62,931 nt of DNA from positions 1 through 62,931 of the forward strand of contig CALKIZ010000092.1 in assembly GCA_937995735.1 (NCBI GenBank), in the 5' to 3' direction. The notes under the pieces were generated by a model. The model did no database searches. It had not been told where the DNA came from and worked only from the letters and a program-made list of their open reading frames with translations. Position 1 is the first letter of the stretch. Every line of letters begins with the position of its first letter. Shown in pieces: positions 9,425 to 34,102 of this stretch. Position numbers and translations under genes: made by a program. This DNA comes from an uncultured Neomegalonema sp. GTDB lineage: Bacteria > Pseudomonadota > Alphaproteobacteria > Rhodobacterales > Rhodobacteraceae.

Positions 9425-9495
9425 TCTTGTACTTTATACTAATATTACGAGTGGGTGACGGAATGGGAAAACCCTTCCAAAGGTGAGGAAAATAG

Positions 9496-10014
9496 ATGTC
9501 CGAGTCAATTTTAGATCTATCAAATATCGTTCTTTTCGGGCGCGTCGTTAATGATATTTCTGCTTCGGGGAAGGCGCACTCGAAGAAGCAATTTGCGCGC
9601 ATTTACGGCTTTAGCCATGGCGGTGTGTACTATAATATCGTTGGCCCTACCATGTTCTTGGTCGAGGGAGATGGTGTCAAAGCAAAAACAATCACAGAGC
9701 CGGGTCCCGATCCCGATGATAAGCCGTTCTATGATGACCTGATGGCTTGGACTTGTAATCAAGTTGATACAACTGTTCGTCTCGATTACGAGGCCGGCAA
9801 GTTTGAGCAGGTTCTTTTAGGCTTAATTGACGATGACATGCTCGCAGAAGTTTCTGGAGCGCGTGTGTCAGGGGCGCGTGTTGCTGGGGCGCGAGTCAGC
9901 GGCGCCCGTGTTAGTGGTGCGCGGGTCAGTGGAGCAAGAGTGTCGGGTGCTCGTGTTAGCGGTGCAAGAGTTTCAGGAGCCCGTGTTAGTGGCGCTCGTG
10001 TGGATGGCGACTGA
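9496..10014 (+). CDS. GARV-pentapeptide-repeat protein, candidate RiPP precursor
   Basis: 172-aa protein of two parts. Residues 1-119 are a mixed, apparently folded region with no family I recognise and one cysteine (AWTCNQ). Residues 120-169 are ten consecutive five-residue units, nine SGARV and one AGARV (third), followed by DGD and the stop. GAGG is well placed before ATG 9496. Position after YcaO-TfuA and a protease suggests a multi-core precursor. Alternatively, read in the register A-R-V-S-G, the units resemble pentapeptide-repeat (quadrilateral beta-helix) proteins with R for N/D and V for L/F; ten units would give only about 2.5 coils. Confidence 0.85.
   Translation: MSESILDLSNIVLFGRVVNDISASGKAHSKKQFARIYGFSHGGVYYNIVGPTMFLVEGDGVKAKTITEPGPDPDDKPFYDDLMAWTCNQVDTTVRLDYEAGKFEQVLLGLIDDDMLAEVSGARVSGARVAGARVSGARVSGARVSGARVSGARVSGARVSGARVSGARVDGD
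9853..10002 (+). repeat. Ten 15-bp coding repeats ([S/A]GARV)
   Basis: Ten in-frame 15-bp units encode [S/A]GARV without a single length change. Synonymous positions vary widely: serine uses tct, tca, agc, agt and tcg; arginine uses cgt, cga, cgg and aga; all four glycine-alanine codon endings occur. The amino-acid pattern is kept while the DNA has diverged, which points to selection on the peptide. Confidence 0.9.
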
Positions 10015-10070
10015 CCCTGTTCGCTTTTTCAAGCATGTGTTCTTCTGCCAGTGTCGGATAAGTCCTTCGG

Positions 10071-10127
10071 TATAGGCATTTAGGCGGGCCTACGTTTTCT
10101 TGGCGTTATACCCGCTAGATGCCTATA
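10071..10127. promoter_or_regulatory. Long imperfect hairpin after the GARV-repeat gene
   Basis: Arms 10071-10088 and 10111-10127 pair over about 16 positions with one mismatch and one bulge, around a 22-nt loop. No T-run follows, so it is not a classic terminator. It lies 56 bp past the repeat-gene stop and 40 bp before the CPBP gene. It may cap and stabilise the upstream mRNA so that the putative precursor is made in excess. Confidence 0.55.
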
Positions 10128-10167
10128 TCGACATGGATAGACTGTTGCTAATCGACTTTGGAGAATG

Positions 10168-10830
10168 ATGCCCGTGACCCACACTGTCGTCCGTTCTGGT
10201 ACGTCAAGACTTTGGTTGGAATTCGTTGCGTTGTACTTATTGGCACCGCTTGCTCTTTGGATTTTTTTACCATACCTCAGCCTCTTTGGATCGATTGCAG
10301 TCGTTACTCTAATCGGAGTTTATCTTTTGATCCAAACGCCAGGTTTTGAATTGCGAGAATTGCTTGATGTAGGGCGTTTGCGCGAAACATGGCCATTGGT
10401 CGCTGGATTATCACTATTAGTATCTATTGTAATACTGCCGTTATCCTACTTTATTATGGGAGATCGTTTTTTAATATTGTTGCGGGAGAGGCCAGATATA
10501 TTAATATTAATATGGCTTCTATATCCGTGGCTTTCTGTATTGGGCCAAGAGATATTATACAGACCTTTGTTTTTTAGACGCTATGGAGAGTTGTTCCCTT
10601 CAGAAGGCATAGCGATTGCTATAAATACACTAATTTTTGCGCTCGCCCATGCATTTTTTGAACGCTGGATTACATTTTTATTGACATTAGGGGGTGGATT
10701 TTTATTTTCTGTAATTTACACGAGAACAAAATCATTCTCTACTGTTTTTGTACTTCACTGGATTGCTGGTGGCATTATTTTCACATCGGGAATGAGGTGG
10801 TATTTCTACCATGGCGCGATTGGTCAGTAA
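10168..10830 (+). CDS. CPBP-family intramembrane metalloprotease (Abi-type)
   Basis: About 220-aa multi-pass membrane protein with the three CPBP motifs: QEILYRPLFF in place of the usual EExxxR, FALAHAFF (FxxxH) and VLHWIAG (HxxxG/N). Families of this kind act in peptide maturation, prenyl-protein processing or bacteriocin self-immunity. GGAG sits just before two adjacent ATGs (10165, 10168); the second has better spacing. The gene is AT-richer than the YcaO/TfuA genes. Being last in the cluster, it may process the product at the membrane or give immunity; both are inference. Confidence 0.8.
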   Translation: MPVTHTVVRSGTSRLWLEFVALYLLAPLALWIFLPYLSLFGSIAVVTLIGVYLLIQTPGFELRELLDVGRLRETWPLVAGLSLLVSIVILPLSYFIMGDRFLILLRERPDILILIWLLYPWLSVLGQEILYRPLFFRRYGELFPSEGIAIAINTLIFALAHAFFERWITFLLTLGGGFLFSVIYTRTKSFSTVFVLHWIAGGIIFTSGMRWYFYHGAIGQ

Positions 10831-10869
10831 CCGGTTAGATAGATCTATAATAATCGAATTTTAAAAGCG

Positions 10870-10892
10870 CTGGGTCTTTTTGTACGACCCAG
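10870..10892. terminator. Palindrome between convergent genes
   Basis: Perfect 7-bp stem ctgggtc (10870-10876) and gacccag (10886-10892) with a T-rich 9-nt loop, between the stops of the CPBP gene (+) and the next gene (-). Probably a bidirectional terminator, although neither side has a long T-run. Confidence 0.5.
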
Positions 10893-10937
10893 TAGCAGTA
10901 ATGTAACGTGAGGCAAATCAGATTATCTAGAGTGTTA

Positions 10938-11774
10938 TCAAGTTTTGGTATCACACACCGCGTAACGCTCAGAGCCTAAGGACAAGGACTTTTGATATTC
11001 TTCGGGAACGTAAAGGCCATAATACCCGAAATCTGCCGCAGATAAATACCCGTTTTTTACTAAGTATTCTATACTGGCGATGATAGTTGGATTAAATTCT
11101 TGTGGGATTTTTGCGTTGGTTATATCGAGTCGATCCGGTATTGGTTCACCACGTTCTTTTCTTGATTTTCGTAATGCTTCGCGAGAAGCGACAACTTTAT
11201 CTCGGTACTTTTCAAATGCTAAGACGTTTTGCCTTTTTTGCTTATAGTCTATTAGTTGATTGACGAGTAATTTACGTTCGCTTTGATGACAAAATCGACT
11301 GATATCTGTTCTCATTGCACAGTTCAAAAATTTTGTAACTTTGTCGAAGGCCCTATGCACCTTATGAGGAGCTACACTCGAAAAGTGAGAACTACGTCCT
11401 TGCCGGCATTTTCTGGAAACGGTTCTCATTGCTTCAGAAGTAGATATTGTTTCTTTTGGTGCAATGATATTTGTAAAATCGATTAAAATTCCTGAATCTT
11501 TTATTGCACTATATTTTTTAGGATCTTTTTTATAATTAATAGCATCTTTAATATCTGACTTTGTGTATCGAACAACCTGAGAGCCATAACTATATGGTGC
11601 ACCGAGAATTACAATGCCAAGCATAAATACTATACCAACGACAGATATTATAACCGGTATATTGTGTGTATTTAGTAGTTTTGTGCGTTTTTTTGATTTT
11701 TGATTCTCATCAACTTCGGGTTCTTTTTTTGGCCGATGCCGACGATTGGTTGCTTTGGATTTTCCGAAAGACAT
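10938..11774 (-). CDS. Unrecognised single-span membrane protein, AT-rich gene
   Basis: 278 aa from ATG 11774, which has AGGG upstream; an in-frame extension to 11864 is less likely. Residues 1-35 are very basic (KSKATNRRHRPKKEP and KSKKRTK). One membrane segment follows (about 41-60, IPVIISVVGIVFMLGIVIL), then a mostly extracytoplasmic region with several lysine-rich helices and four or more cysteines. No family recognised. The DNA is visibly more AT-rich than the housekeeping genes, with AAA/ATA codons, suggesting transfer. It is convergent with the RiPP locus, so its link to that locus is unclear. Confidence 0.65.
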   Translation of the reverse strand: MSFGKSKATNRRHRPKKEPEVDENQKSKKRTKLLNTHNIPVIISVVGIVFMLGIVILGAPYSYGSQVVRYTKSDIKDAINYKKDPKKYSAIKDSGILIDFTNIIAPKETISTSEAMRTVSRKCRQGRSSHFSSVAPHKVHRAFDKVTKFLNCAMRTDISRFCHQSERKLLVNQLIDYKQKRQNVLAFEKYRDKVVASREALRKSRKERGEPIPDRLDITNAKIPQEFNPTIIASIEYLVKNGYLSAADFGYYGLYVPEEYQKSLSLGSERYAVCDTKT

Positions 11775-11904
11775 GATGACCCTGATTTTCTTTGCTTTGT
11801 GTCTACTATCCTCAAAGATGGTTAAGACGGTGTTGCCTTCTGGCTGACAGGTGCTCCTGCACATTGTACGGTGTCATGTTATCGGCGATCTGGAGCGATA
11901 TCTT

Positions 11905-12339
11905 ATGGAACTGATACGATTTTTTTGGCGTGGGTTACCGGCCTATGTTTGGGTCGCGTTCGCATATGCAATGGTAGTTGCGGGAGCGCCGGTTCGTGGA
12001 TCGAATATTGTGGCGCTAGAGCGATATTTGGCTGAGCCATTATTTTCTATTCCATTGTTAAACAATGGAATATTTCTTGTTAGTCTCAACGCGATTTTCA
12101 TAGTAGCGGCTTTTGTCGCCGTATGGATAGAAGTCGTGCGCGCAACGTCACTTCAGAGCCGCGCAGGTAACGATTGGATGTCTTTGGTCGCGACCTTCGT
12201 GTCGATATTGGTTTTCGCCGGAGCCGAGTCCTTTGGAACATTGGCGTTTATGGTCGTTCCATTGGCGGGCTTTGGCGACCTCTTGTTGGACCGTTTGGTA
12301 GGGCAAGCTGTTGCAAAGCGAGATTTTGCAATAAACTGA
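11905..12339 (+). CDS. Small unrecognised inner-membrane protein
   Basis: 144 aa from ATG 11905, preceded by GGAG. About four membrane segments are visible (near residues 12-28, 48-72, 92-110 and 113-130), with little soluble sequence. No family motif recognised. It diverges from the AT-rich gene and is followed by a 307-bp gap before proS. Confidence 0.6.
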   Translation: MELIRFFWRGLPAYVWVAFAYAMVVAGAPVRGSNIVALERYLAEPLFSIPLLNNGIFLVSLNAIFIVAAFVAVWIEVVRATSLQSRAGNDWMSLVATFVSILVFAGAESFGTLAFMVVPLAGFGDLLLDRLVGQAVAKRDFAIN

Positions 12340-21089: not shown

Positions 21090-21590
21090 TTAGAGCGCGA
21101 GGCGCGCTTTAACTTCGCCAACCCAATGATGCTTTGTCAAATGATTGGCAACGTCAGCCAAAGATGTCCCTTCACCCGCAGCGTCAAGCTGATGGCGCGT
21201 TGCTGCAATAACAGGATTGTTTGCAGCGTCGGGCAGTTTTTCAGCTTGGACCATCGCGATAAACATGCCGTTTTGATTGGCGCGCATAAAATCGGGGTCT
21301 TCACTAGATGCAAAGACCATTGATTGTTCGCTGATGCTCTTGCCTTTCTGACCGGAAAGGGTTCCGAGGCACTCGACAACGACCCGGCCTTTGTCAGCAA
21401 CGCTCAAACTATCACCGCCAAAAATTGACATAAAGGCGTTGATTTGACCCATTAGAAAGCCAAGGACATAAGAATCGTCCCAAAAACCACTTGGAACGCC
21501 ATGTTGGTTTTCGACCATTGTCACAGTCATACGGGTTGCTTTGCTGATATCATCTGCAAGCGATTTGTTTTTATTGGATCCAAATATCAT
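21090..21590 (-). CDS. Unknown 166-aa protein, last gene of the dynamin operon
   Basis: No family recognised. It is soluble, has no signal peptide, and is rich in helices (for example YVLGFLMGQINAFMSIFGG and KGRVVVECLGTLSGQKGKS). The C-terminal third (about 120-166) looks like a separate helical segment. It starts 3 bp after the small GTPase gene stops, so it is almost certainly co-translated with it. Its place in the operon suggests a partner or regulator of the GTPases; this is inference. Confidence 0.8.
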   Translation of the reverse strand: MIFGSNKNKSLADDISKATRMTVTMVENQHGVPSGFWDDSYVLGFLMGQINAFMSIFGGDSLSVADKGRVVVECLGTLSGQKGKSISEQSMVFASSEDPDFMRANQNGMFIAMVQAEKLPDAANNPVIAATRHQLDAAGEGTSLADVANHLTKHHWVGEVKARLAL

Positions 21591-21593
21591 CGT

Positions 21594-22346
21594 TTACTCC
21601 GCAGCCTTTTTTGCTGCCTTCATCGGCGTGACGACAAGCTCATGGGCGATGCTGGCAAGTGCAGCGCCTCCCGTTTCTTCCCAAGCGCGCGTTTCAGAGA
21701 CCGCACGGTTTAATTTTTCTGTTGATGCTTGCATGAAAACAATTTCAGAAAAGAAATTATGCGCGTCAGATTGAAGCCGCGTTTCAATCTTATCCAGATC
21801 GGCACCGGTTTTAAGTTTGTCTGCGCGGGAGATAGCAAGAATCGACTTGTCGCGAACATTGTAGGGAAGTTGCTCGATGATTGCTTTTTCTGACAAGCGC
21901 CATGCCTGCGAAGCAATCGTTACCCATACGATCATGTCCGCATCGCTGATTACTTCAAGGTCACGCTCGCCTATGCCGCCTGTGGGGTGAAACGGCATTT
22001 CCATGATTTCTATCCCCCTCAAATCGCCAAGCGGGATCTTCAATGTGCAATGTGCAAGAAACTTATTATCTACCAGCTCGTTCATGGAAGATGCGTTGAA
22101 TTCGCGGCCCATTGTATCTTCAGCGCGAATGACTGGCGTTATTGCATGAGAAATTCTGATTTTAGGGCGAGCCACCAAAGCAGGATTTGATGGGAGGATT
22201 GGCCGGCGTAGCATTGCATTGATGACCGTCGACTTGCCGCTTTCGAACTCGCCGGCAACGACGACGCGCCATACGTCTGACGTTCGCACACGCGGCTTTT
22301 CGATTTCGTCGACCAGATCTTGAAGTGAGACATTCTTTTGCATCAA
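21594..22346 (-). CDS. Small dynamin-superfamily-like GTPase with altered G3 motif
   Basis: 250 aa. P-loop GEFESGKS at 32-39 is intact. Where G3 should read DxxG, the sequence is IMEMPFHPTGG, so the aspartate is replaced. The G4-like motif is SRADKL, matching TRADKL in the 389-aa paralogue. A shared segment (MIVWVTIASQAWRLSEKA then VRDKSILAISRADKL) links it to the 389-aa and 435-aa proteins of this operon. Nucleotide binding is likely; hydrolysis is doubtful. It lies 9 bp after the 700-aa GTPase gene. Confidence 0.82.
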   Translation of the reverse strand: MMQKNVSLQDLVDEIEKPRVRTSDVWRVVVAGEFESGKSTVINAMLRRPILPSNPALVARPKIRISHAITPVIRAEDTMGREFNASSMNELVDNKFLAHCTLKIPLGDLRGIEIMEMPFHPTGGIGERDLEVISDADMIVWVTIASQAWRLSEKAIIEQLPYNVRDKSILAISRADKLKTGADLDKIETRLQSDAHNFFSEIVFMQASTEKLNRAVSETRAWEETGGAALASIAHELVVTPMKAAKKAAE

Positions 22347-22355
22347 GTTTTCCAG

Positions 22356-24458
22356 TTATGCAGCTTGTTCGTCACGGTCAGTGGAAAGTGCATCTTCTTT
22401 GGATGCGATCACCTGAAGACGATTATCGATAATTTCGATGTCGTTATGCAGGCGATTAAGAATTTTAGATTTCGCGGCTTCGTCATTTCCACTCTTGAGA
22501 AGTTTATGGTCTTCGCGCAAGCGCATAATGCGGTCATTCAGCGATTGCTCAACAATTTGAGCAACGAGGTTCAGGCGGCTTTTCCCGACCATTGCACGTT
22601 CAGTCATCGTGTTGGTGAACGCTTCTACCATCTTGTTTGTGGCAGGGCGAACTTCTGCGGACGCAATACGTCTGAATGCGTCTACTGTTTTATCGAGATC
22701 GATTTTTTTCTTCCAAAACATGAGGCCACGCCTTGGAACCAGATCAAATGATAATGTCTTTTTCGATGTTGCAAAAGTTACCGCGACAAATTCACCGGGC
22801 AGCCCGGACATTGAAATTTGTGCGCCCAGTCCTTCTGTTGCGCGGTTCGCGATGGCGATGGCATCTGAAAGTGCTTTGTCCAATATCTTGTCAAGATTGA
22901 AGCGCGTTTTTTCGTAACTATCACGAAGCCGGTTTTCCATTGCGACACGAAGCGGAAGAAGGTCGACTTCTTTTTCTCCGGCCTTCAGATCACCACTTAA
23001 CAATTCGCTGATTGCGTTTCGTTGTGTCTTGATGAATTTGGCTGTTTCACCATCCATGTGCTGTTGAATGGCAACCCAACTTGTATTGACAGTTTCGTCA
23101 ATTCCTTGGTCTGCCTCTTCAATCAACTCCGCCAATGCCGTGTATGTTTCGGCCAACAGTGTCATTTCATCTTCGAGCTGTTCGCGATATTCGGCAACCT
23201 TGCCTGATCCGTAAATCTCGATTTGGTCCTGCAACTCGTTGCGTTGGCGACGGGACAGTGACTTCATCGCTGCCAGTTGAGCATTTGTTTCCAGCTGAAC
23301 ACTTTCGACCAAACGCGCACCGGCTCCATTGTCAATTGCATTAGATAATGCGCGTTCGATTTCAGGAAGTCCTGACGCGACCATCAGTTTTTCCCGCAAA
23401 GTTTGCGGGGTTTCTTCGCGATTTAATGCGTTGAATTCATCAACATTTGTGGACCGCATCAGTTTGCGCAATTCCGCATCCGCAAAGTCTTCGTTCATTG
23501 CGGTTTCGGCCCAGTGGGCACTGCCAAAGATGATAGAAAATTTAGCTTCCGGAACAGCATCGGTTACGCGGTCGGTAACATCGTTGACGATACGTTTAAT
23601 TCTTTGAGGGCCATTTTCCAATTCATCGACACGATTGATATAGATGATGACATCTTTATCGCCTTGTAGGGCGAGCATACGGATCAGGGCAATGTCCACT
23701 TCTGTCAAGGCTTGATGCGCGGACAGCATTACAAGGAAGATGTCTGATTGATCGAGGCTTTGGCAGGTGAATTCATCACGAACCAGAAATGGATCATTTA
23801 CGCCCGGTGTATCCGTGATGATGGTTGGGCCGGCATACCGGTCTGATTGCATAAACAGATGTGCAACTTTGGTGATTGATGAATAACGACCAATGCTGTC
23901 ATCGTCTTTTATCTGAGCCGACCCGGCGCCGGCGCAAACATAACTTTCGAGAAGTTCACCGGACAGAAGATCGTAGTCATGCTGTTTGCCAAGCAATTTT
24001 ACATAAGATGGACCAAGCCGTCTGGCAGCATGCTGTCTCATTTCTTCGGTTTGTGATCGCAAAATTTCAGGATCAAAGCCGGGTAAGAATTTTTTTGCGG
24101 CTTCACGTAAATTCGGATCACCGTTAATGATCCGGTCCCATGATTGTTCGTCAAAAAATTCAAAACGTGCGCCGCTTTTCGGGTCACCGGGAATGTTCAA
24201 GCGCATATTGGTGACCACAGATGTCCATGGGTTCACATCCGCAGGAAGAAAGCCTAACTCGCCAACAAGTGCATTCAATGTAGATGATTTTCCGGCTTTA
24301 ACTTGCCCAATCGCCGCAACACGTGCTGTCCACGTATTGAGCCGCTTTATCTGTGTATCGAACGCGGCGACGAATTCTCCTGTCGAAACAGTTCTCAGGT
24401 CCTTAAGAGCCTGACGGAGCGCTGTAAGCCGTTGATGATGTGCGATGCCAATTTGCAT
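22356..24458 (-). CDS. Dynamin-like GTPase, large (700 aa)
   Basis: Dynamin-family GTPase domain with G1 GQVKAGKS (51-58), G2 region PADVNPWTSVVTNM, G3 TDTPGVND and G4 NRVDEL. A long helical region follows, consistent with bundle and stalk (about 330-700). Near residues 575-586 there is a hydrophobic/basic patch, GLMFWKKKID, flanked by helices, at the place where dynamin-like proteins often carry a membrane-binding paddle. The 672-aa protein of the same operon has the same plan, suggesting a heteromeric pair as in other bacterial dynamin pairs. No membrane-spanning segment is obvious. Confidence 0.9.
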   Translation of the reverse strand: MQIGIAHHQRLTALRQALKDLRTVSTGEFVAAFDTQIKRLNTWTARVAAIGQVKAGKSSTLNALVGELGFLPADVNPWTSVVTNMRLNIPGDPKSGARFEFFDEQSWDRIINGDPNLREAAKKFLPGFDPEILRSQTEEMRQHAARRLGPSYVKLLGKQHDYDLLSGELLESYVCAGAGSAQIKDDDSIGRYSSITKVAHLFMQSDRYAGPTIITDTPGVNDPFLVRDEFTCQSLDQSDIFLVMLSAHQALTEVDIALIRMLALQGDKDVIIYINRVDELENGPQRIKRIVNDVTDRVTDAVPEAKFSIIFGSAHWAETAMNEDFADAELRKLMRSTNVDEFNALNREETPQTLREKLMVASGLPEIERALSNAIDNGAGARLVESVQLETNAQLAAMKSLSRRQRNELQDQIEIYGSGKVAEYREQLEDEMTLLAETYTALAELIEEADQGIDETVNTSWVAIQQHMDGETAKFIKTQRNAISELLSGDLKAGEKEVDLLPLRVAMENRLRDSYEKTRFNLDKILDKALSDAIAIANRATEGLGAQISMSGLPGEFVAVTFATSKKTLSFDLVPRRGLMFWKKKIDLDKTVDAFRRIASAEVRPATNKMVEAFTNTMTERAMVGKSRLNLVAQIVEQSLNDRIMRLREDHKLLKSGNDEAAKSKILNRLHNDIEIIDNRLQVIASKEDALSTDRDEQAA

Positions 24459-24504
24459 GTTTTACTCGTCAGTTTCTATGAGGCGCGGACGTTCAGGCTG
24501 TATG

Positions 24505-25269
24505 TCAGAGATATTGCCGAAGGCTGTTGATGCTTTTCTCGAGTGTATCGAACGTAGCCGGGTCTTCAGCGACGATAAGACAACCGGAACCCTCTAACCA
24601 TGCCATTGCTATCGCTTGCGGTTTGTCACCGTCCAAAACGAGGAAGCGAAGATCAGAATTTTTTTCCGCTAAAGTTGGTATTATTCCGTCAATTTTGGCT
24701 TTGAACCACTCCGGATTAAGCTGTGAGATATCCGGAACAAACATAGTGTCATCGTCTCCAAAGCGCACGCGGGCCATGGTCGGGAAGTCGTCGAAAAGCT
24801 CTTCGATAACAGTCGATGCAGACGGATAATTTTGTGCTTGTTTGATGTGCTGTGCAAGCATTGATGCCTGATAACCGGAACCGGTGCCGCTTATGGTGTC
24901 GTCTATTAGAGCTTGATCAATTTGTATTGCTTCATCACCAATAACTTTCGTCAGGGTTGATGCGAACGGGTGAGCAAAAGTTTCGTAATCTGAGACGCAT
25001 TTGATCTCTTGTGGTGAAATCTCATGATCCCAAAGCTCAGGCGGGTGAACTTCGGCAATCTTAAGCACGCGCCGGTTTTTTACGACGACTGATAGGCGCG
25101 ATCCGTTTTCTGCCCGCGCGGTAATACGGCGGGGTAGGATCGTGCCGGAAAGAATATTCTGGAAGGCGCTTACGGCGTTCTCAGGGCTATGAGGAATAGC
25201 AGCTGGCGGCGGCGACTTTCCCTCTATAGTGTCAATGATGCTTTGGTATCTTGCGGATAACTCGCTCAT
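24505..25269 (-). CDS. Unknown 254-aa protein of the dynamin operon
   Basis: No family recognised. Soluble alpha/beta composition; a strand-rich part (RLSVVVKNRRVLKIAEV) precedes a helical middle, and the C-terminal ~90 residues alternate strands and helices (LRFLVLDGDKPQAIAMAWLEGSGCLIVAEDP). It begins 2 bp after the Roadblock-like gene stops, so the two are probably translationally coupled and may interact. A 46-bp gap separates it from the 700-aa GTPase gene. Confidence 0.78.
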   Translation of the reverse strand: MSELSARYQSIIDTIEGKSPPPAAIPHSPENAVSAFQNILSGTILPRRITARAENGSRLSVVVKNRRVLKIAEVHPPELWDHEISPQEIKCVSDYETFAHPFASTLTKVIGDEAIQIDQALIDDTISGTGSGYQASMLAQHIKQAQNYPSASTVIEELFDDFPTMARVRFGDDDTMFVPDISQLNPEWFKAKIDGIIPTLAEKNSDLRFLVLDGDKPQAIAMAWLEGSGCLIVAEDPATFDTLEKSINSLRQYL

Positions 25270-25271
25270 GA

Positions 25272-25673
25272 TTAAGCCGCCTCCACGTCAGTCGATAAAT
25301 TAAAAATTTGTCCTGCTGCATCGCGTAAATCAGAACGGTTCGGCATAGTCTTGAATTGGCAGACGAGCATATCTTCAGTAGAGCCTTGCGATTTAATAAC
25401 CGCGAGAATTGATTGTTTGCCAATGTTGAAACTGGTGAGGGAATCCTTACCGGCTGCGTTGCTCGTGAGAGCCGACGCTAAAGGACCGTCTAATTCGACC
25501 AGCGCGGAATCTGCAAGTCTGTCAAGTTGATCTTGTGAAACCGGCTTTTCGCTGCTTTTACACAAAACCAGATTCGTTTCCGGGTCGATCAAAATGACAA
25601 GATCACATCCATCGACGCGATCCCGTAATTTATCGGCGGCTTCTTGGATTTTTTGTCTCAGCTCTGACGCCAT
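25272..25673 (-). CDS. Roadblock/LC7-like small protein
   Basis: 133 aa: an N-terminal helix (ELRQKIQEAADKLRDRV), then DLVILIDPETNLVLCKSS, a helix (QDQLDRLADSALVEL) and strands (TSFNIGKQSILAVIKSQ, DMLVCQF). This order resembles the Roadblock/LC7 fold, whose bacterial members such as MglB act as partners or GTPase activators of small GTPases. The match is by pattern only. Its place between a small GTPase gene and the unknown 254-aa gene fits a switch-regulator role. Confidence 0.55.
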   Translation of the reverse strand: MASELRQKIQEAADKLRDRVDGCDLVILIDPETNLVLCKSSEKPVSQDQLDRLADSALVELDGPLASALTSNAAGKDSLTSFNIGKQSILAVIKSQGSTEDMLVCQFKTMPNRSDLRDAAGQIFNLSTDVEAA

Positions 25674-25678
25674 CGGAT

Positions 25679-26848
25679 TTATCCTGCAGCTTTCATCGAG
25701 ACTTGGTTCTTCAGATTTGCGATCTCTGAGTCGATCCGTTCAAGAAACATATCGAACGCCAGAGCGTAGGCGTCAGCGTCATCTGAGGGAATACTATTTG
25801 CCATGGATGACCAAAGCTCAGTTGCATACCCGAAGCCGCCTTCTGTATTCTCAGGGTGTGCGTTTTTCTTTGCCTGAATGGATGAATTCATCGCTTGGGA
25901 ATCAAGGCGGTCGACCTGTGCAGGCTCTGGTTCAATTGGAACCGATGCTGTGAGTGCGGCAAGGACATCATCGGTATCGTCGAATTCATCTTGCGTTGAG
26001 GCCAGTGCCGCGAGATCGACCTCAAGGTCGTCGAATTCATCGTTTTTCGTTTTCTGCACGTGATCGCCTTTTAATTTAGGAGTCGCGACTTCAGCTTTGT
26101 TAGGTTCCGGCGCGCTGGTACTTTCATCCAATAGGCTGTTGGCAACAGCAACGCTTGCTTCAGAACTAACTTGTGAAGCTGAGTCTACAGTATTGCACAA
26201 GGCCATAAGATCATTGAGGACCTCGTTTGCATTTGAGAAATTTATCAGTGATGCCATGTGGATATGCGTAAACTGATCGCTGGCTTCATGCTGTACGCGG
26301 CGTAATACTTTCTTTCGGTCCGTCTCATTAGTGAGTTTATCGGCCCTTGTCAGAAGCAGAATACTTTTTGCGCGCACATGCCCGGGAACTTCTTTCCATG
26401 CGGATAATTCGCTTTGGCGCCACGCCTGGGTCGACGGCGAGCACCAAATCGCAATGTCTGCAATCTTCGCCACGCGCTCCCAAGCCTCTGAAGCGATATT
26501 TGGATCGGAATTGCCGGGCGTGTCTATAAAATCGCATAACTTTAGGGCAGGGGCTTCAACAAATGATCGAATGTAAGCGGTCTCGCTGACAGAGATAGAA
26601 TCAGGATTTAACAAATCTATAGGGTGTTTCTTTCCGGCCAGATCAACACCGTAGGAGTCACCTGTTCCGTATGATATCCAGACGGCAGGCATTTGGGTGG
26701 CGGTAACTTGAGTCCTCAAGCTATGCGCACCGGTCAATAGGTTAATGAGAGTAGATTTTCCGGCACTAAACTCACCCAAGACCACGACACGGGCACGCCG
26801 GGTTTCGTTGGCTTTTTCTTCGGTCTCAAAGGGTTCTGGACTGGTCAT
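25679..26848 (-). CDS. Small dynamin-superfamily-like GTPase with acidic C-terminal extension
   Basis: 389 aa. All G motifs are intact: GEFSAGKS (25-32), a threonine-rich G2 (RTQVTATQMPAVWIS), G3 IDTPGNSDPN and G4 LTRADKL. After the GTPase domain (about 1-220) comes an acidic, disordered-looking linker of ~110 residues (DEFDDLEVDLAALASTQDEF and similar), then a C-terminal helical segment (ADAYALAFDMFLERIDSEIANLKNQVS). It is the best-preserved of three related small GTPases here. The linker may tether partners. It starts 9 bp downstream of the 672-aa GTPase gene. Confidence 0.85.
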   Translation of the reverse strand: MTSPEPFETEEKANETRRARVVVLGEFSAGKSTLINLLTGAHSLRTQVTATQMPAVWISYGTGDSYGVDLAGKKHPIDLLNPDSISVSETAYIRSFVEAPALKLCDFIDTPGNSDPNIASEAWERVAKIADIAIWCSPSTQAWRQSELSAWKEVPGHVRAKSILLLTRADKLTNETDRKKVLRRVQHEASDQFTHIHMASLINFSNANEVLNDLMALCNTVDSASQVSSEASVAVANSLLDESTSAPEPNKAEVATPKLKGDHVQKTKNDEFDDLEVDLAALASTQDEFDDTDDVLAALTASVPIEPEPAQVDRLDSQAMNSSIQAKKNAHPENTEGGFGYATELWSSMANSIPSDDADAYALAFDMFLERIDSEIANLKNQVSMKAAG

Positions 26849-26857
26849 AATGGATCC

Positions 26858-28876
26858 TTAGGCCGCAAGATTTTCGATGAGTTTGCGGGTATGATCTAGG
26901 GCTTCCGCCTTCTCTGATGGTGCAACGGTATCAATCGATGAATCGCCACCGTCGTCGCTTGCTAAAGACAGAAGCGCATCGCGTTGAGTTTCTATGAAAT
27001 CTTTGAGTATCGCAGCGTTTTCTGAGCATAATGCCGGAGCCATCTCATCGGAAAGTTCCGATACAATCGAACCTGTTTCTTTGAGAACAAGCTCGGAGTA
27101 TCGTTCGGTAGCCGCATTCGGACCGCGCAAATTGCGCCACCATTTTTTCCACCACGACACATTCAGATCGAGTGCGATTGTTTGACCGACAGTCGTAGGG
27201 GGTAAAAGACGTGCGGATGCAGGTGCGTTGAGACGAACTGCGCCCGGTTCTACGCCGAAAGTGTCGACATAAATGTCCTCAAAACTGCGGCAAGCATCGT
27301 GAAAAACGCCTTGGGTCGATTTTTCAATAGCAGAACCGAATGCTGAATAAGCAGAGCGCAACATCATTCTGAGGCCGGCGGGGTTGTACTGCCAAACTTC
27401 GTCCGAACCATGTGCTTCGAGGTGTGAGAGTAATGCTTCTACCGCACGATTTGCAAAGACACCTTGTGACCTTGTTAAGCGTTCGGATAATTCATCACGG
27501 GCAAACTCACTCGCATCTGATAGTGAGTTTGTCAGCCTTTTTTCAACTTCTTTAATTTTGGCTTTCAGAGCTTTTTCATCAATATCCGTTTTTGTCGCGC
27601 TTTGCCGGCGCAACCCTATTTCGCGGTCTGCTGTCTCGATAGATGTGAGCAAGTTACCCACTTCGTCCCGAACCTCTTTGAGCATCGCTTGGCCTGGTCC
27701 TTCGATGATTCTGTCGGCAATACAGCGATGCAAACTTGGTACGCCTGACAGGTTCCATGCCAAACCGCGAAGGTCCTCATATTTATTCAGGTCGTGGTCA
27801 CCCAAATTACTTTTTGCCCATTTTTCCAGTGCCGTTCTCGATGCGTCGGGGAGATTATCGAGTGTATCCGATATTGCATTGAGCGCCCAGAACGCGCTGC
27901 CAAAGACGATTTGTACGTCTTCAGCGACATCATGTTTTTTGAGAGTTTGGCGGAAGTTCTTCTCGATCTCCGGAATTTCATTTGCGGGATCGTCGAGTTC
28001 GTCAATGCGATTAACAAACAGAACAACTTCACGCGCATCGACATTAGCGATCAGACGCAGCAAGGCCATGTCCATGGTCGATAATGCTTGATGTGCTGAC
28101 AAGACGACGATGCAAAGGCGGGAGTCGCGAATCGAGTTTATCGTGATTTGCTCGCGCATCATGAACGTATCATTCACGCCCGGCGTATCGCGGAGACACA
28201 ATCCCGTAGGGTATCCCGGCAGGTCAAGATAAAGATTAGCGAGTTTCGTGATATCGGCAAAGCGTCCGCGGGATTTTGCCTCTTCTTCATCTTCCCAGGC
28301 ACCATAGCATACATACCGGTTGATCAGATCCTGATCAATCATATCGTAGTTATGGCTGGTCCCGAGTAACATTTCGAATTTTTTGCCGAGACGAGCGCGG
28401 CTTTTTTCACGCATCGCGATGACTTGTGCTTGAATTTCATCTTTTTCGTTGTTGAAGCCAGCCCGTTGCGCCAACTCACCCAGACGTCCGCCCGTGCTGA
28501 CGAGACGGTCCCATTCTTCTTCATCGAAGAAATGGAACAGAGCTTTTGTTCCTTCAGGTCTGCGGCGCGAATTTAAATGCAAACTGGTCACAACCGATGT
28601 CCAGGGGTTCACATCGGACGGAAGCAATTCGGTTTGACCGACCATTGCGTTTATCAATGCTGTTTTGCCGGCCTTTATTTGGCCTATTAATGTGATCGTT
28701 GGTTCAAATGATTCGATCTTGTTGGCAATTTTGTCCGTCTGTTTTTTTGTATCTTCGCCTCCGACTTCATTGATACGGGATAGCGCGGATTTCACATCAT
28801 CGAAGGATTGCCAAAGCGCGTTAAGCTGCTCTAGGCCTTCTGGTGCAATCGCTGGAGAGGAGACAAAAGAACTCAT
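26858..28876 (-). CDS. Dynamin-like GTPase, large (672 aa)
   Basis: G1 GQIKAGKT (65-72), G2 region PSDVNPWTSVVTSL, G3 RDTPGVND, G4 NRIDEL: an intact dynamin-type GTPase. The helical C-terminal half carries a tryptophan/lysine-rich motif, SWWKKWWRNLRG, at about residues 571-582. It lines up with the FWKKK patch of the 700-aa paralogue and is a strong candidate membrane-inserting paddle. The two large proteins share many positions across the GTPase domain and probably arose by duplication. Cytoplasmic and peripheral to the membrane by inference. Confidence 0.9.
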   Translation of the reverse strand: MSSFVSSPAIAPEGLEQLNALWQSFDDVKSALSRINEVGGEDTKKQTDKIANKIESFEPTITLIGQIKAGKTALINAMVGQTELLPSDVNPWTSVVTSLHLNSRRRPEGTKALFHFFDEEEWDRLVSTGGRLGELAQRAGFNNEKDEIQAQVIAMREKSRARLGKKFEMLLGTSHNYDMIDQDLINRYVCYGAWEDEEEAKSRGRFADITKLANLYLDLPGYPTGLCLRDTPGVNDTFMMREQITINSIRDSRLCIVVLSAHQALSTMDMALLRLIANVDAREVVLFVNRIDELDDPANEIPEIEKNFRQTLKKHDVAEDVQIVFGSAFWALNAISDTLDNLPDASRTALEKWAKSNLGDHDLNKYEDLRGLAWNLSGVPSLHRCIADRIIEGPGQAMLKEVRDEVGNLLTSIETADREIGLRRQSATKTDIDEKALKAKIKEVEKRLTNSLSDASEFARDELSERLTRSQGVFANRAVEALLSHLEAHGSDEVWQYNPAGLRMMLRSAYSAFGSAIEKSTQGVFHDACRSFEDIYVDTFGVEPGAVRLNAPASARLLPPTTVGQTIALDLNVSWWKKWWRNLRGPNAATERYSELVLKETGSIVSELSDEMAPALCSENAAILKDFIETQRDALLSLASDDGGDSSIDTVAPSEKAEALDHTRKLIENLAA

Positions 28877-28929
28877 CGGATAACTTTCCCGGTATCGGCT
28901 ACACTCAAGTCAAATTCAAAAGTCGAGCG

Positions 28930-30237
28930 TTAATTGCTGAAAGATACTTTCTCAATTTCTGTAAGATTTCGTGTACCGCTTACTGACTTTGACGGCAGGC
29001 GAAGCCAAGTGTCCATCGTGATTTGGCGAAAAATGTCTGTCGCTTCGTTTGCAGCATTCTCATTGTTCTCGTAACTGAGCAATCCAATTAATTCGGACGC
29101 TTCTGTAATCTGCCGTTTCATAAGGTCGTGATCGCGAGTGAGGTTGAGATCGTTGGCGATCACTTTCGACAAGGATGATAAAACTTCGTTCAACGGATCG
29201 AACATCGGAGAATAATTGTTTGGCTCACAATTTTTGACAGCTGCCTGACATCGTTTAGCACCATTCAGTATGATGTTTTTCGCATGGGCTTCAGGCGATA
29301 ATTGTGAGGCCGGTTTCGCTGCGACCGCTAAAGTTGGTCCCGCTGCGGATAATGGAACAGAAGGAGCGTCTTGCAGAGCACCTATCGGAATTGTGTCAAT
29401 CTCTGCACGCACCGCCTTAGCCTGAGCAAGGAGGTCACCCTGACCGATTTGAACCAATGCAATAACATGCTTCATAAGAGACATCGCGCCGCTTGACACA
29501 AATTGGTCATTGTCAAGCACCGTGCCTGAGTGAACAGTTGTCTTGGCCTGCTCAACATTTACTTTTGCCGAGGTATGAAATTCACCAGAAACAAATTCCA
29601 GTTTTTGCTCAAGAGCTGTCGTGGCTTCGTCAGTTGTCAGAAGCTCTGCATTTGTTAATGCCAAAACACTGTGTTCTTTGAGTGTATCCGGAACCGTGAA
29701 CCACAAGCGTCTTTCCTGCGGCGACCATTGGTTGGTCGCATCCGAGCACCACACAATTACTTCTGTATTATCGAGCAAATTAACGAGGTAGCCTGCCCGA
29801 TTGTCATCACCATCATAAGCGGGAAGAATGGTGAAATCTATATCGGCTAAAATCGGATACGGTAGTTGAATGCGTATCGCCGATGGCTTTTTGCCGGCTA
29901 ACGCAACCGATAACGATATGCCCGGATAACTTTTGAGCGTGTCTCCAAAGATAGCTTCCGTCTTTGCTTCTTTGCCAAAACGAACCTCGATTACTGGGCA
30001 GGATTTCGCTTCATCTGCGGAAGCGAAAAGCCGCTCGCCGATAAACAGTTCACCAACAGCGCGGTGTTGTGATGCAGACAGACCTGCAATGGCCACCTTC
30101 GCAGGCGTGCCCAATCTATGAATTGTTTCTGTCAAACGAGAAACCAGATCGGCATCAAGATTGTTCAGCTCGTCGCCCATCATCCCGCAAAATGATTTGA
30201 GGCGTTTGCGTAGCTTTTGCTTCTCTGTGAGCTTCAT
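28930..30237 (-). CDS. Pseudo-GTPase of the dynamin operon
   Basis: 435 aa from ATG 30237 (AAGGG upstream; an in-frame extension to 30330 is less likely). The fold of the small GTPases is recognisable, but the nucleotide motifs are gone: AGLSASQHRAVG replaces the P-loop, ILPAYDGDD replaces DTPG and ALTNAELL replaces TRADKL. The intervening VIVWCSDATNQWSPQERRLWFTVP still aligns with IAIWCSPSTQAWRQSELSAWKEVP of the 389-aa protein. The second half is helical with a variable linker. First gene of the operon. Probably a structural or regulatory subunit that no longer binds GTP in the standard way. Confidence 0.8.
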   Translation of the reverse strand: MKLTEKQKLRKRLKSFCGMMGDELNNLDADLVSRLTETIHRLGTPAKVAIAGLSASQHRAVGELFIGERLFASADEAKSCPVIEVRFGKEAKTEAIFGDTLKSYPGISLSVALAGKKPSAIRIQLPYPILADIDFTILPAYDGDDNRAGYLVNLLDNTEVIVWCSDATNQWSPQERRLWFTVPDTLKEHSVLALTNAELLTTDEATTALEQKLEFVSGEFHTSAKVNVEQAKTTVHSGTVLDNDQFVSSGAMSLMKHVIALVQIGQGDLLAQAKAVRAEIDTIPIGALQDAPSVPLSAAGPTLAVAAKPASQLSPEAHAKNIILNGAKRCQAAVKNCEPNNYSPMFDPLNEVLSSLSKVIANDLNLTRDHDLMKRQITEASELIGLLSYENNENAANEATDIFRQITMDTWLRLPSKSVSGTRNLTEIEKVSFSN

Positions 30238-30562
30238 AGGTAACCCTTCGAAGTGTTGCGGTTCCGAAAAGGGTAGCTTGTAAAAAAACAAACAACGCCT
30301 TCGACCCGAAACACGAATCTGTACGCCCAATTTTTAATCACTGGCGTCTGTATTTTTGGTTAATTAGTCCCGAAAGATTGCAGCTTATTTATTTGAATAT
30401 TTATTAGGTAGTGTAATTTGCATCAAAGGTAATTCTGGTGTCGTCATTTATCGGGGTAGCAGGTATCCTTTGTATTTTTTTTGGTAAATATGCCTCCGGT
30501 TTCATCCGATTTTTACTATCTGCGGTCAAAAACTGTCCGCAGTAAGGAAAGAGGATTCCCCC
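30238..30562. promoter_or_regulatory. Divergent intergenic region of the dynamin operon and the amt-kinase gene
   Basis: 325 bp, AT-rich, holding promoters for both directions. A hairpin with arms ctgcgg (30520-30525) and ccgcag (30537-30542) sits immediately before the amt ribosome-binding site (AAAGAGG) and could influence its translation. I cannot assign sigma-54 or other boxes with confidence. Confidence 0.5.
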
Positions 30563-33500
30563 ATGACCGAACCGTTAACAGCGCTTTCTGGCGCGACGTT
30601 ATGGATGACCATTGCTGCCTTTATGGTCTTCCTGATGCAAGCAGGCTTCCTGCTCATTGAGGCTGGCATCTGTCGTTCGAAAAATTCAACGAACGTCGCA
30701 CAGAAGAACGTGTCGGATATGATTATCTGCATGTTCTGTTATTCGCTTATCGGCTTCGGTTTGATGTTTGGTGCTTCAACCACCGGCATTTTCGGTTGGG
30801 GTAGCGTCAAAGAGACGTTGATCGAAAACGAGCAATGGCCCGTTCAATTGATCTTTAACCTCGCATTCTGTTCGGTTGTTGCGACGATTGTGTCGGGCGC
30901 TGTGGCGGAACGTATGCGCATTGGTGCGTATTTCATCAGCACCATTGCAATTGCAACGCTCGTGTATCCTGTCTTTGGTCACATGGCCTGGGGTAATACG
31001 ATCATCGCATCCAACGAGCCTCTCTTGGCTTCGATCGGATTTATCGATCACGCGGGTGGTATTACCATTCACGCCCTTGGTGCATTTTATGCTCTTGCGG
31101 CTTGTATCGTTCTTGGCGCACGTCAAGGTCGGTTTGATTCGAATGGCAACGTCCTTCCGATTACCGGATCGAGTTATGTCCTTGCACTGTCGGGTGGTCT
31201 GATTCTTTTCGTGACCTGGATTCCCTTTAACACCGGTGCGATGGCTCCGGGGTCGCAAGCCTTTGCGGATGCTGCGTTGAACACGATCATCGCGGGCGCA
31301 GCCGGCGGTATCGGCGGTAAGATCATCGGTTACTTCCTGAACGATAGAACATTCGATCCGATGGCGTCCACGAACGGATTGCTTGGTGGTCTGGTGGCGA
31401 TTACGGCGGGTGTTTCCTACGTTGATTTCTTCGGCGCGACTGTGATTGGTGCGGCGGGTGGCTTCATCGGAATCATGGCCAACCACATCATTTTGCATAA
31501 GTTTAAAATCGATGACCCCGTAGGCGTTGTTGGCGTTCACGGTATTGCTGGATTGTTCGGCGGTGTCGTATTCCCACTTCTCGCTGTGAATGAAATGCCT
31601 CTTGAGCCGGTTGCGCAAGTTGGTGCACAGGCCGTCGGTGGAGCCGTAGCTTTTGCGTGGGGCTTTGGCGTGGGTTTCGTCGTTCTCCTCGCGATGAAGA
31701 AGTTCGGTATCCTGCGCGTGACTGCTGCGCAAGAACACCTTGGCTTGAACTTCGGTGAGCACCTTGCCGGCGTTACCGCCGATCACCTGAAAGCCGCCTT
31801 TGATGTTTCCAAGCCAGCGACGGGGTCGTTGCTGGAGACAGCAGCCGCTCCTGCCGCTATGGGCGCGGGTGCGATGGCCGCTGCCGCTGCGATGCCATCG
31901 GATATGATGCCATCGGGCGAGGTTGGCTTCGCGCTGACCAAGATGACCGATGCTCACGCCGCGAAAGCACAAGAGCTGTCGGCAACGCTTTCGGTCTTCG
32001 AAACTGCCATGGAGAGCATGGCCGATGGTATGCTTATCTTTGATGGTGAAGGAAAAATTGTTCAGGCGAACAGTGCCTTTAAAGCCACGATGGCATCTTT
32101 GAAAGTCGGCGTCAGAATCGGTATGTCGCGTGATGAGTTCACCGAGAGCCTGTTCAAGTCGGGTGCGTTCAACCCTGATGACTTGGCTATCGAAGATTGG
32201 ATGCGTTCCGGTATTGCACCAAGTGAAACTGATGCGGCGCGTGAAGAACGGATTACGACACCAAATGGTCGTTACTTCATTCAACGTATGATGCCAACCG
32301 CCGATGGTGGTCAGGTTATCAGTTTGACCGATGTTAGTGAGATCCAAACGGCCCTCACCGCAGCAGAAGCTGCGCAAACAGCGAAGTCCGAATTCTTGGC
32401 CAACATGAGTCACGAAATTCGTACCCCGATGAATGGTATCATCGGCATGACTGAGCTGCTTGGTAACTCTGACCTTGGACCGCGTGAGACTCACTTCGTC
32501 GATACGATCTCCAAGTGTGGCACGGCGTTGATGAAAATCATCAATGACATCCTTGATTACTCGAAGATCGAAGCTGGCCAAGCGAAGATCGATAACGCAC
32601 CATTCTTGCTGCGTGAGAGCATTGAAGATGTCACGACCCTGCTGGCGAGTTCGGCAGCGGCGAAAGATATCGACTTGCTTGTGCGCTATCGCCCAACGCT
32701 GCCATCGACCTTCGATGGTGATATTGGCCGGGTCCGTCAGGTGATGACGAACCTGATCGGTAACGCGATTAAGTTCACTGAAAAAGGTCATGTTCTCATT
32801 GATGTTGAAGGTGAAGTGAACGGCGATGTTGCTGATCTGGTGATCCGTGTTGAAGATACCGGCATCGGCATCCCGGAAAATCAGCTCGGAACCGTGTTCG
32901 AAAAATTCCGTCAGGTCGATGGATCGAATACACGCAAATACGAGGGAACCGGCCTTGGCCTTAGTATCTCGGCAAGCCTTGTCGATATGATGGGCGGCGA
33001 TATCTCGGTCGAAAGTGTTGTTGATCAAGGAAGTACCTTCATCGTCAAGCTATCCCTGCCGGTTGCGGAAGACATCAAGGTCGCCAAGCCTGCTCCTGTT
33101 GAGATCATCGGATCGAAAGTTCTGATCATCGACGACAATGCAGTGAACCGCGATATCCTGACCGAACAAGTCAGCCACTGGAAGTGTCAAAGCGCTGCGG
33201 TTGATAGTGCTGAAAAAGGCCTTTCGGTTCTGCGCAAAGCGCGGGCAAAGGGCGTTAACATTGATCTCGTCATTGTTGATTTCCAGATGCCGAATATGAC
33301 CGGTGAAGATTTCTTCGATGAGCTGCGGGCGGATAAGTCAATTTCTGATATTCCTGTTCTGATGTTGACTTCAATCAGCGAAGATGAAATGGCGCGCAGA
33401 ATGTTGGATAATGGTCTGAGCGGTATTCTCATCAAGCCTGCACGGTCCTCGCAACTGCTCGACACAATCGCAACCTGCTTACACAAGGCGCAGGCTGATT

Positions 33501-34102
33501 TGACCGAGTTGGAAATTGAAGCTGATGCTGAAGAAAAATGGGCCGAGCCTGTCTCGGAAAATCTTCCCAAGCCGAAAGTTTCAGATGCCGTTGCCGTTTC
33601 TCCTGTGGTTGCCGCGTCCTTCGAAGATCGTGATGATGCGGATGATGTATCCGGGGTCATTGACGCTCAAGAAGATGAACCGCAAGAAGCTGTTGCCGGT
33701 GGCGAAGGATTGGATATCCTTGTTGCTGAAGATAACGAAACCAATCAGAACTACATCGAATATATCCTCGATGATGTTGATGTGGAGTTCGCTATCGTTG
33801 ACGACGGACTTGCTGCGGTCGAAGCATGGCGCACTCAATCGCCGCGCATCATTCTGATGGATATTTCGATGCCTGAGATGAACGGCCACGAAGCCACCAT
33901 TAGAATCCGCGAACTTGAAGCGGAACTTGGCCGCGATCGCACGCCGATCATCGCGTTGACCGCTCATACTCTGAAAGGCGATAAAGAAAAATGCCTCGAA
34001 GTTGGTATGGACGATTACATGAGTAAGCCTGTCTCGGTGCAGAACGTCCGGGATATGTTGGAGAAATGGGAAATCACGCCGGGCGAAAGCGAAGCGGTCT
34101 GA
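30563..34102 (+). CDS. Ammonium transporter fused to hybrid histidine kinase with two receiver domains
   Basis: 1179 aa in one frame. About 1-400: Amt/MEP channel with eleven membrane segments and the family marks GFLLIEAGICRSKN and FGWGS. About 400-470: Ala-rich linker. About 480-590: PAS-like region (FETAMESMADGMLIFDGEGKIVQANSAF). Then the kinase H-box FLANMSHEIRTPMNG (His617), ATPase motifs DTGIGIPENQ and GTGLGLSIS, receiver 1 with phospho-acceptor D906 (VIVDFQMPNM), and receiver 2 with D1100 (ILMDISMPEM). It likely senses ammonium flux and signals by phosphorelay. No separate Hpt or GlnK gene is adjacent. Confidence 0.93.
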   Translation: MTEPLTALSGATLWMTIAAFMVFLMQAGFLLIEAGICRSKNSTNVAQKNVSDMIICMFCYSLIGFGLMFGASTTGIFGWGSVKETLIENEQWPVQLIFNLAFCSVVATIVSGAVAERMRIGAYFISTIAIATLVYPVFGHMAWGNTIIASNEPLLASIGFIDHAGGITIHALGAFYALAACIVLGARQGRFDSNGNVLPITGSSYVLALSGGLILFVTWIPFNTGAMAPGSQAFADAALNTIIAGAAGGIGGKIIGYFLNDRTFDPMASTNGLLGGLVAITAGVSYVDFFGATVIGAAGGFIGIMANHIILHKFKIDDPVGVVGVHGIAGLFGGVVFPLLAVNEMPLEPVAQVGAQAVGGAVAFAWGFGVGFVVLLAMKKFGILRVTAAQEHLGLNFGEHLAGVTADHLKAAFDVSKPATGSLLETAAAPAAMGAGAMAAAAAMPSDMMPSGEVGFALTKMTDAHAAKAQELSATLSVFETAMESMADGMLIFDGEGKIVQANSAFKATMASLKVGVRIGMSRDEFTESLFKSGAFNPDDLAIEDWMRSGIAPSETDAAREERITTPNGRYFIQRMMPTADGGQVISLTDVSEIQTALTAAEAAQTAKSEFLANMSHEIRTPMNGIIGMTELLGNSDLGPRETHFVDTISKCGTALMKIINDILDYSKIEAGQAKIDNAPFLLRESIEDVTTLLASSAAAKDIDLLVRYRPTLPSTFDGDIGRVRQVMTNLIGNAIKFTEKGHVLIDVEGEVNGDVADLVIRVEDTGIGIPENQLGTVFEKFRQVDGSNTRKYEGTGLGLSISASLVDMMGGDISVESVVDQGSTFIVKLSLPVAEDIKVAKPAPVEIIGSKVLIIDDNAVNRDILTEQVSHWKCQSAAVDSAEKGLSVLRKARAKGVNIDLVIVDFQMPNMTGEDFFDELRADKSISDIPVLMLTSISEDEMARRMLDNGLSGILIKPARSSQLLDTIATCLHKAQADLTELEIEADAEEKWAEPVSENLPKPKVSDAVAVSPVVAASFEDRDDADDVSGVIDAQEDEPQEAVAGGEGLDILVAEDNETNQNYIEYILDDVDVEFAIVDDGLAAVEAWRTQSPRIILMDISMPEMNGHEATIRIRELEAELGRDRTPIIALTAHTLKGDKEKCLEVGMDDYMSKPVSVQNVRDMLEKWEITPGESEAV

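Follow-up and report, generated by a model that had tools for sequence, protein, structure and literature searches.

A dynamin, small GTPase and Roadblock-fold operon of Neomegalonema is a genus-specific form of a gene cassette of one alphaproteobacterial family

To our knowledge, few regulators or triggers are known for bacterial dynamins. The locus studied here is a predicted eight-gene operon at positions 21090 to 30237 of a 62,931-nucleotide stretch of DNA from an uncultured Neomegalonema sp. (contig CALKIZ010000092.1; this whole stretch is called the window), and it resembles the paired dynamin-like proteins (DLPs) of other bacteria (C. jejuni Cj-DLP1/2, LeoABC, Streptomyces DynA/DynB and Nostoc BDLP1) in that two large dynamins are encoded in one run of genes. 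Unlike those pairs, it holds extra small GTPases, a pseudo-GTPase and a protein with a predicted Roadblock fold, and related loci of the family add a trio of kinase, FHA protein and phosphatase. The pairing of bacterial DLPs has been described (PMC6104087), and the words kinase and roadblock each have 0 occurrences in that paper. We read the operon as the form that a dynamin/GTPase/Roadblock cassette takes in this genus; the cassette belongs to a single alphaproteobacterial family, and its named carriers are Rhodobacterales. The unit looks like an undescribed, signal-controlled membrane machine, and no description of such a cassette was found in the open-access literature among the matches listed (titles and abstract starts). 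Its eight genes are co-directional and run from 30237 down to 21090:

28930..30237, minus strand: P435, a pseudo-GTPase of 435 amino acids (aa), first gene of the operon, with no P-loop, DxPG or G4 pattern
26858..28876, minus strand: DLP1, a dynamin-like GTPase of 672 aa (Dynamin_N 8.8e-13; G1, DxPG and G4 conserved)
25679..26848, minus strand: G389, an intact small dynamin-type GTPase (Dynamin_N 6.9e-10)
25272..25673, minus strand: RB133 (RB), a predicted Roadblock-fold protein (AlphaFold2 model with structural matches to MglB and Roadblock proteins)
24505..25269, minus strand: P254, a possible second Roadblock/longin-type regulator (AlphaFold2 model, weak structural matches)
22356..24458, minus strand: DLP2, a second dynamin-like GTPase, of 700 aa (Dynamin_N 9.7e-13)
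21594..22346, minus strand: G250, a small GTPase with a TTG start (P-loop and G4, without DxPG)
21090..21590, minus strand: P166, to which no match assigns a function, conserved in the genus (8 sequences including the window)

Several other described systems share parts of this gene content. The likeness to MglA/MglB of Myxococcus lies in the predicted fold of RB, which matches MglB, and RB and P254 side by side recall the bipartite Roadblock GTPase-activating protein complex of PMC9481161. Unlike MglA/MglB, the partner GTPases are dynamin/Era-like here, with the dynamins as the likely output; the operon was not taken for an MglA/MglB module, as G389 and G250 best match Dynamin_N and no Ras-type model was among the Pfam matches. 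In type VI secretion, PpkA, PppA and Fha act as the kinase, the PP2C phosphatase and the FHA protein. A kinase, PP2C and FHA trio in relatives of the operon is like that threonine phosphorylation pathway (PMC5995506), unlike which it is linked to dynamins and GTPases, with no secretion genes seen; identity with the pathway was rejected, the window's genome having no Pkinase match and the trios of G018 and G020 lying without type VI genes (10 and 7 proteins scanned). GTPases neighbouring a kinase and PP2C are also a feature of the GAP1-N2 systems, of whose GTPase neighbourhoods about 10% have a kinase, usually with a PP2C phosphatase, and for which a near-membrane role has been proposed (PMC7159879); their vWA and FNIII parts were not seen here, and dynamin and roadblock each have 0 occurrences in that paper. 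As in the Kuenenia ammonium sensor histidine kinase (PMC5764959), an Amt domain is fused to a histidine kinase in the gene next to the operon (Amt-HK); unlike the Kuenenia sensor, it is a hybrid kinase with two receiver-domain stretches and stands beside a dynamin operon. Two further identities were tried and set aside: LeoABC, since PADLOC gives partial LeoA/LeoBC matches (best 2.4e-12) and the gene content differs, and a known anti-phage system, 4 of the 8 proteins being without any match in PADLOC 2023.

A sequence-only reading of this DNA had described an eight-gene run with gaps of 2 to 53 base pairs (bp), and all open reading frames (ORFs) were recovered at their coordinates on the minus strand with agreeing gaps (53, 9, 5, 2, 46, 9 and 3 bp in succession). 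Its two large dynamin-like GTPases hold as well, DLP1 and DLP2 reaching 49.1 and 48.9 bits against the Pfam Dynamin_N model, for which the curated cut-off is 27 bits; G389 and G250 reach 39.6 and 39.9 bits. By contrast with these four, P435, RB, P254 and P166 gave nothing above the curated cut-offs in Pfam or NCBIfam, the best sub-threshold match pairing P254 with a model of phage tail terminators (E 0.0024; 18.4 bits against a cut-off of 23.8). Profile searches of the PDB were likewise unconvincing for RB (best E 0.28), P254 (0.10), P166 (0.99) and P435 (0.038), the P435 match falling on the dynamin-like GTP-binding protein of 5owv (chain C).

Whether these genes are kept together in relatives, the question on which the sequence-only reading had staked its proposal, was answered in its favour within the genus. 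A single-sequence search recovered P254 from 8 of the 13 relatives in the genus and from none of the 47 more distant genomes covered, and the operon gene order was kept in 8/8 of the relatives with P254; six of these loci are complete and two (G007 and G008) are cut by contig ends. Since the same order recurs in relatives, the arrangement is not due to chance. At the eight loci the identity to the window is 58-95% for DLP2 and 61-93% for DLP1 (72% and 84% for the two fragments of DLP1 in G007), whereas that of P254 falls to about 30%; P254 thus evolves faster than the dynamins. Among named relatives, the closest are metagenome assemblies that carry the label uncultured Neomegalonema. P166 had no match in 40 loci of the wider family or in 7 other family loci, and none below E 0.2 in 5 plasmid loci. 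One genus member, G003, carries a second, paralogous locus (L017, G003:C13:75000-94500) with FHA, PP2C, P435, RB, P254, Ser/Thr kinase, DLP2 and G250, in which the kinase sits between P254 and DLP2, the G250 has a C-terminal extension, and there is no DLP1 or G389.

Beyond the genus, and beyond what had been read from the window, five of the eight genes belong to a wider cassette, most copies of which also include a Ser/Thr kinase, an FHA protein and a PP2C phosphatase. A DLP1 profile recovered orthologues (E <= 1e-100) from 98 of the order's 292 sampled genomes, in 41 of 113 genera with the window's genome included, all in one family; in a class-wide sample of 385 there were two, both of that family, one being the window's genome. 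Scoring in both searches was limited to the 3 or 4 top candidates of each genome, so that some carriers may have been overlooked. Out of these 98, 40 loci (40 genomes, 39 genera) were chosen and scored with local profiles, and the exact order Ser/Thr kinase-FHA-PP2C-P435-DLP1-G389-RB-P254 was found in 27 of them, from 27 genera. G389 directly follows DLP1 in 40/40 and P254 directly follows RB in 33/40. The same eight cassette genes are rearranged in L125, and the cassette is cut by contig ends in L106, L118 and L120. Partial loci lack a kinase match (L117) or an RB match (L119), or consist of DLP1-G389 alone (L126). L121 and L127 read DLP1-G389-RB-P254-second dynamin-P435-kinase, and their kinase lies close to where the examined stretch stops. 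In the last four of the 40 (L129-L132) the arrangement is DLP1-G389-DLP2-G250, with one gene between the two dynamins; in the window three genes separate them. The window operon brings together five genes of the common cassette and the DLP2-G250 pair of this second arrangement, a pair also present in Rhodobacter sp. CZR27. Assignment by profile is least secure for P435 in L116 (E 2e-4) and for P254 in both L119 and L123 (E about 1e-3), while kinase, FHA and PP2C matches are all at E <= 2e-69 save for a stray kinase (E 0.0045) outside the L094 cassette.

The cassette is also borne by plasmids. On plasmids of Leisingera and Ruegeria the gene annotation lists kinase, FHA, PP2C, 'dynamin family' and hypothetical proteins, and among the hypotheticals our profiles pick out RB (E 6e-5 to 1e-11) as well as P254 (E 6e-4 to 3e-9); the order is canonical on two Leisingera plasmids and rearranged on the other two Leisingera/Ruegeria plasmids. 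No universal extra partner emerged among the conserved neighbours of the 40 loci, the largest conserved group (13 loci) resembling generic ABC transporters as judged by eye. Four loci (L096, L103, L104 and L106) share a protein, the longest 544 aa and exported-looking by eye, 200-281 bp past the P254 end of the cassette. In L100 an in-frame TGA splits DLP1 (about 8991-11060), either by real decay or through a sequencing error.

The GTPases of the unit differ in their motifs, scored with simple patterns that may miss variants. G1, G3 and G4 are present in 55/56 DLP1 sequences each (one gene counted as two split pieces) and in 15/15 DLP2 sequences each. In G389 the P-loop is found in 49/49, DxPG in 46/49 and the G4 pattern in 35/49, and in G250 the P-loop is found in 13/13 and G4 in 12/13, with DxPG in 0/13. 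Among 42 members of P435, DxPG is found in 0/42 and the G4 pattern in 7/42, and the P-loop is retained in 27/34 family homologues as opposed to 0/8 genus members. The operon therefore holds a dead, a partly degenerate and an intact GTPase. That P435 is a pseudo-GTPase, as had been read from the window, holds for the window protein, which shows none of the three motifs, and its proposed kinship with the small GTPases holds as well, as the P435 profile recovers G389-type proteins at E 4e-13 to 7e-18. A P435 homologue of Leisingera sp. S132 (L092, 10637-11872) is annotated 'zeta toxin family protein', a label that probably stems from the P-loop alone.

As for the two dynamins, a bacterial DLP pair is recognisable from Dynamin_N in two large window proteins (about 670-700 aa) with intact G1, G3 and G4. 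Their only PDB sequence matches at E <= 1e-4 are the bacterial dynamin-like protein 2j68 and 5owv, covering part of the GTPase domain; we equate these entries with BDLP1 and the Cj-DLP pair. Bacterial dynamins contact the membrane through their paddle, and by analogy with it a conserved stretch of Trp and basic residues (WW..W in 12/13 DLP1, an FW pair in 11/11 DLP2), the one feature here that bears on membrane binding, is a candidate membrane contact.

The sequence-only reading had also called RB Roadblock-like, and this stands by predicted fold but not by sequence profile. The AlphaFold2 model of RB133, built from a 4-sequence alignment, has a mean predicted local distance difference test score (pLDDT) of 74.6 and runs helix-2 strands-helix(es)-3 strands-helix, the order of the Roadblock domain. 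Its best structural matches in the PDB are Roadblock proteins, Myxococcus MglB among them (best E 8.1e-7), with TM scores against MglB of 0.65 (query) and 0.69 (target) and a root-mean-square deviation (rmsd) of 4.6. The model thus supports a Roadblock fold for RB133, which we name a Roadblock-fold protein and not a member of the Pfam family. For P254 (pLDDT 73.0, predicted TM score 0.54) the model weakly matches the longin/Roadblock GTPase regulators MON1-CCZ1, EGOC and Ragulator, with a best E of 5e-4, a large rmsd and TM scores by target of at most 0.48 among the 50 matches listed; on this model P254 is possibly a second Roadblock/longin-type regulator, and its C-terminal half aligns collinearly with RB, though weakly so, at a probability of 3.5 (E 0.013). 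In some GTPases of the G250 and G389 types the C-terminal tail appears Roadblock-like by eye. Seven of the eight tails picked come from loci without a detected separate RB, L017 being the exception. The RB profile aligned to all eight tails with an hhalign probability of 41.0 (E 2.8e-4), compared with 0.1-0.2 for RB against the PP2C and FHA profiles, and one tail compared with the PDB gave no Roadblock match. From the pattern and this weak profile comparison, a Roadblock-like nature of the tails is suggestive only.

A possible source of signal lies directly upstream of the operon in the window:

30238..30562, no strand: divergent intergenic region between the operon and the Amt-HK gene (alignment of 5 genomes)
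30563..34102, plus strand: Amt-HK, a fusion of an ammonium transporter and a hybrid histidine kinase (Pfam)

An orthologue of Amt-HK (67-94% identity; in G007 a 513-residue piece) was found in 9/9 genus genomes with the operon and in 0/5 without it, where the best matches are 40-44% identical and cover the kinase part only. Amt-HK adjoins the operon in G000, G012, G011, G003 and G006 and shares a contig with the start of DLP1 in G007; in the remaining three carriers the operon contig ends before the Amt-HK position. In a GyrB tree of 13 genomes, 10 of them of the genus (G006, G007, G008 and G013 were left out, and four forks are weakly supported), the operon carriers do not form one clade (approximately unbiased test, p 1.8e-46) and 3 presence changes are required. 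Several genus genomes are incomplete assemblies, and some absences may be false. The five-genome alignment of the intergenic region shows a short conserved block near the Amt-HK start, and the region received no promoter assignment. Scans for promoters and terminators counted no clear surplus over shuffled sequence (9 vs a mean of 11.2; 15 vs 11.5, standard deviation 3.4). Pkinase matches in the carrier genomes are confined to G003 (two) and G004 (one). The 'FHA' protein of G018 has a Yop-YscD_cpl match alone, below the cut-off, and is FHA by homology; the FHA profile used for locus scoring was built from a group that includes it.

From the gene content and order, their conservation, the motif state of the GTPases and the predicted fold of RB, we propose a signal- and Roadblock-controlled GTPase relay that drives the dynamin pair on the inner membrane, and give it a probability of roughly 55%. 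A signal would enter via a kinase, which at most sampled family loci would be the Ser/Thr kinase, opposed by PP2C and read by the FHA protein, and in the window's genus might be the linked Amt-HK. RB, probably partnered by P254, would set the nucleotide state or the partner choice of G389, while G250, without DxPG, and the pseudo-GTPase P435 may serve as scaffolds or decoys. The GTPases would recruit or release the DLP1/DLP2 pair, which would assemble on the inner membrane through the Trp/basic stretch and tether, seal or cut it under the sensed condition. The relay is supported because the order is the same in 8/8 genus relatives with P254, because the canonical cassette order occurs in 27/40 family loci, with DLP1 and G389 adjacent in 40/40, and on two Leisingera plasmids, and because the RB model matches MglB. 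It is further supported by the paralogous locus of G003, which joins FHA, PP2C and kinase to P435, RB, P254, DLP2 and G250, by the GTPase tails that look Roadblock-like mostly where a separate RB is missing, by the WW..W stretch in 12/13 DLP1 and by the co-occurrence of Amt-HK (9/9 vs 0/5, with 3 presence changes on the tree). Of the dedicated membrane-remodelling or switch machine that the sequence-only reading proposed, gene order and the RB fold support the dedicated unit, its Roadblock partner and the second family of GTPases; membrane remodelling is what we infer from the dynamin family.

Several points weigh against this relay. All of its support is genomic or comes from predicted structure, and the link of Amt-HK to the operon is itself a genomic one. 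In contrast to the Ras-like GTPase of MglA/MglB, the small GTPases here are dynamin/Era-like. No Pfam Roadblock model matches 10 RB members or the eight GTPase tails, and the probability for RB and the tails is far under the usual 90%, falling to 23.9, 2.7, 0.1 and 0.3 for tail groups A, B, C and D. Confidence in P254 is no more than moderate, its five models ranging in pLDDT from 73 down to 38, and the structural matches span roughly half of the protein and are mixed with a designed fold, GRP94 and phytochromes. Finally, no kinase, FHA or PP2C gene was found in the examined stretches of the 8 main genus loci (FHA and PP2C were not searched genome-wide), and a Pkinase match is missing from 7 of the 9 genomes with the operon, that of the window among them.

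The RB fold nearest to MglB, the kinase, phosphatase and FHA genes at most sampled family loci and the graded series of intact, partly degenerate and dead GTPases would also suit a GTPase switch for polarity or signalling of the MglA/MglB kind, with the dynamins as scaffolds or polymers and not as membrane remodellers. We consider such a switch somewhat unlikely, since by Pfam the operon is without a Ras-like GTPase, a full-size dynamin stands directly before G389 in 40/40 loci, and the PDB sequence matches of DLP1 and DLP2 at E <= 1e-4 are solely to bacterial dynamin-like proteins (2j68 and 5owv). An anti-phage or other conflict system with the dynamins as its membrane effector is distinctly unlikely: the exact eight-gene order of 27 loci in 27 genera speaks against it, as does the lack of any relative in phage records or viral contigs, although its presence is patchy (98/292 genomes of the order), the cassette is also plasmid-borne and PADLOC gives partial matches to LeoA (DLP1 2.4e-12). 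PADLOC 2023 matches none of RB, P254, P435 and P166, and no defence genes were seen among the annotated neighbours of 5 plasmid loci (by eye, in incomplete tables; the genes flanking the 40 family loci lay outside this inspection).

It is very improbable that the unit serves the post-translational control of a secretion system, comparable to PpkA-Fha-PppA in type VI secretion. The kinase-FHA-PP2C trio at most sampled family loci invites the comparison, and the FHA proteins match Yop-YscD_cpl, a domain model named for type III secretion; however, that model aside, no secretion genes are annotated at the 5 plasmid loci or were found among the scanned proteins of G018 (10) and G020 (7), and none of the 8 genus relatives showed the trio next to the operon.

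Under the proposed relay, the cassette offers candidate regulators and triggers of bacterial dynamins in RB, the three-state small GTPases and the Ser/Thr circuit or ammonium-type sensor. Carriers are found in named genera with sequenced plasmids (Leisingera, Ruegeria and Rhodobacter), so that dynamin switching is directly testable, and Roadblock regulation would, if the relay is true, extend beyond Ras-like GTPases. More tentatively, and in our view possible rather than probable, about a third of the order's sampled genomes may carry an undescribed machine that runs from a kinase/phosphatase/FHA circuit or an ammonium-sensing kinase through a Roadblock-plus-longin-like pair and dynamin-family small GTPases to inner-membrane dynamins. 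It would be a counterpart in bacteria to the eukaryotic scheme of a longin/Roadblock regulator, a small GTPase and a membrane-remodelling effector.

Elsewhere in the window, an ORF of 172 aa on the plus strand (9496-10014) ends in eleven C-terminal pentapeptide repeats of the SGARV/AGARV type, and at the DNA level the same region shows overlapping 15- and 30-bp tandem arrays. Positions 10001-12000 have a G+C content of 0.405, compared with about 0.5 on both sides, and this stretch covers a membrane ORF that reads by eye as CPBP-protease-like and a 308-aa minus-strand ORF without an assigned kind.

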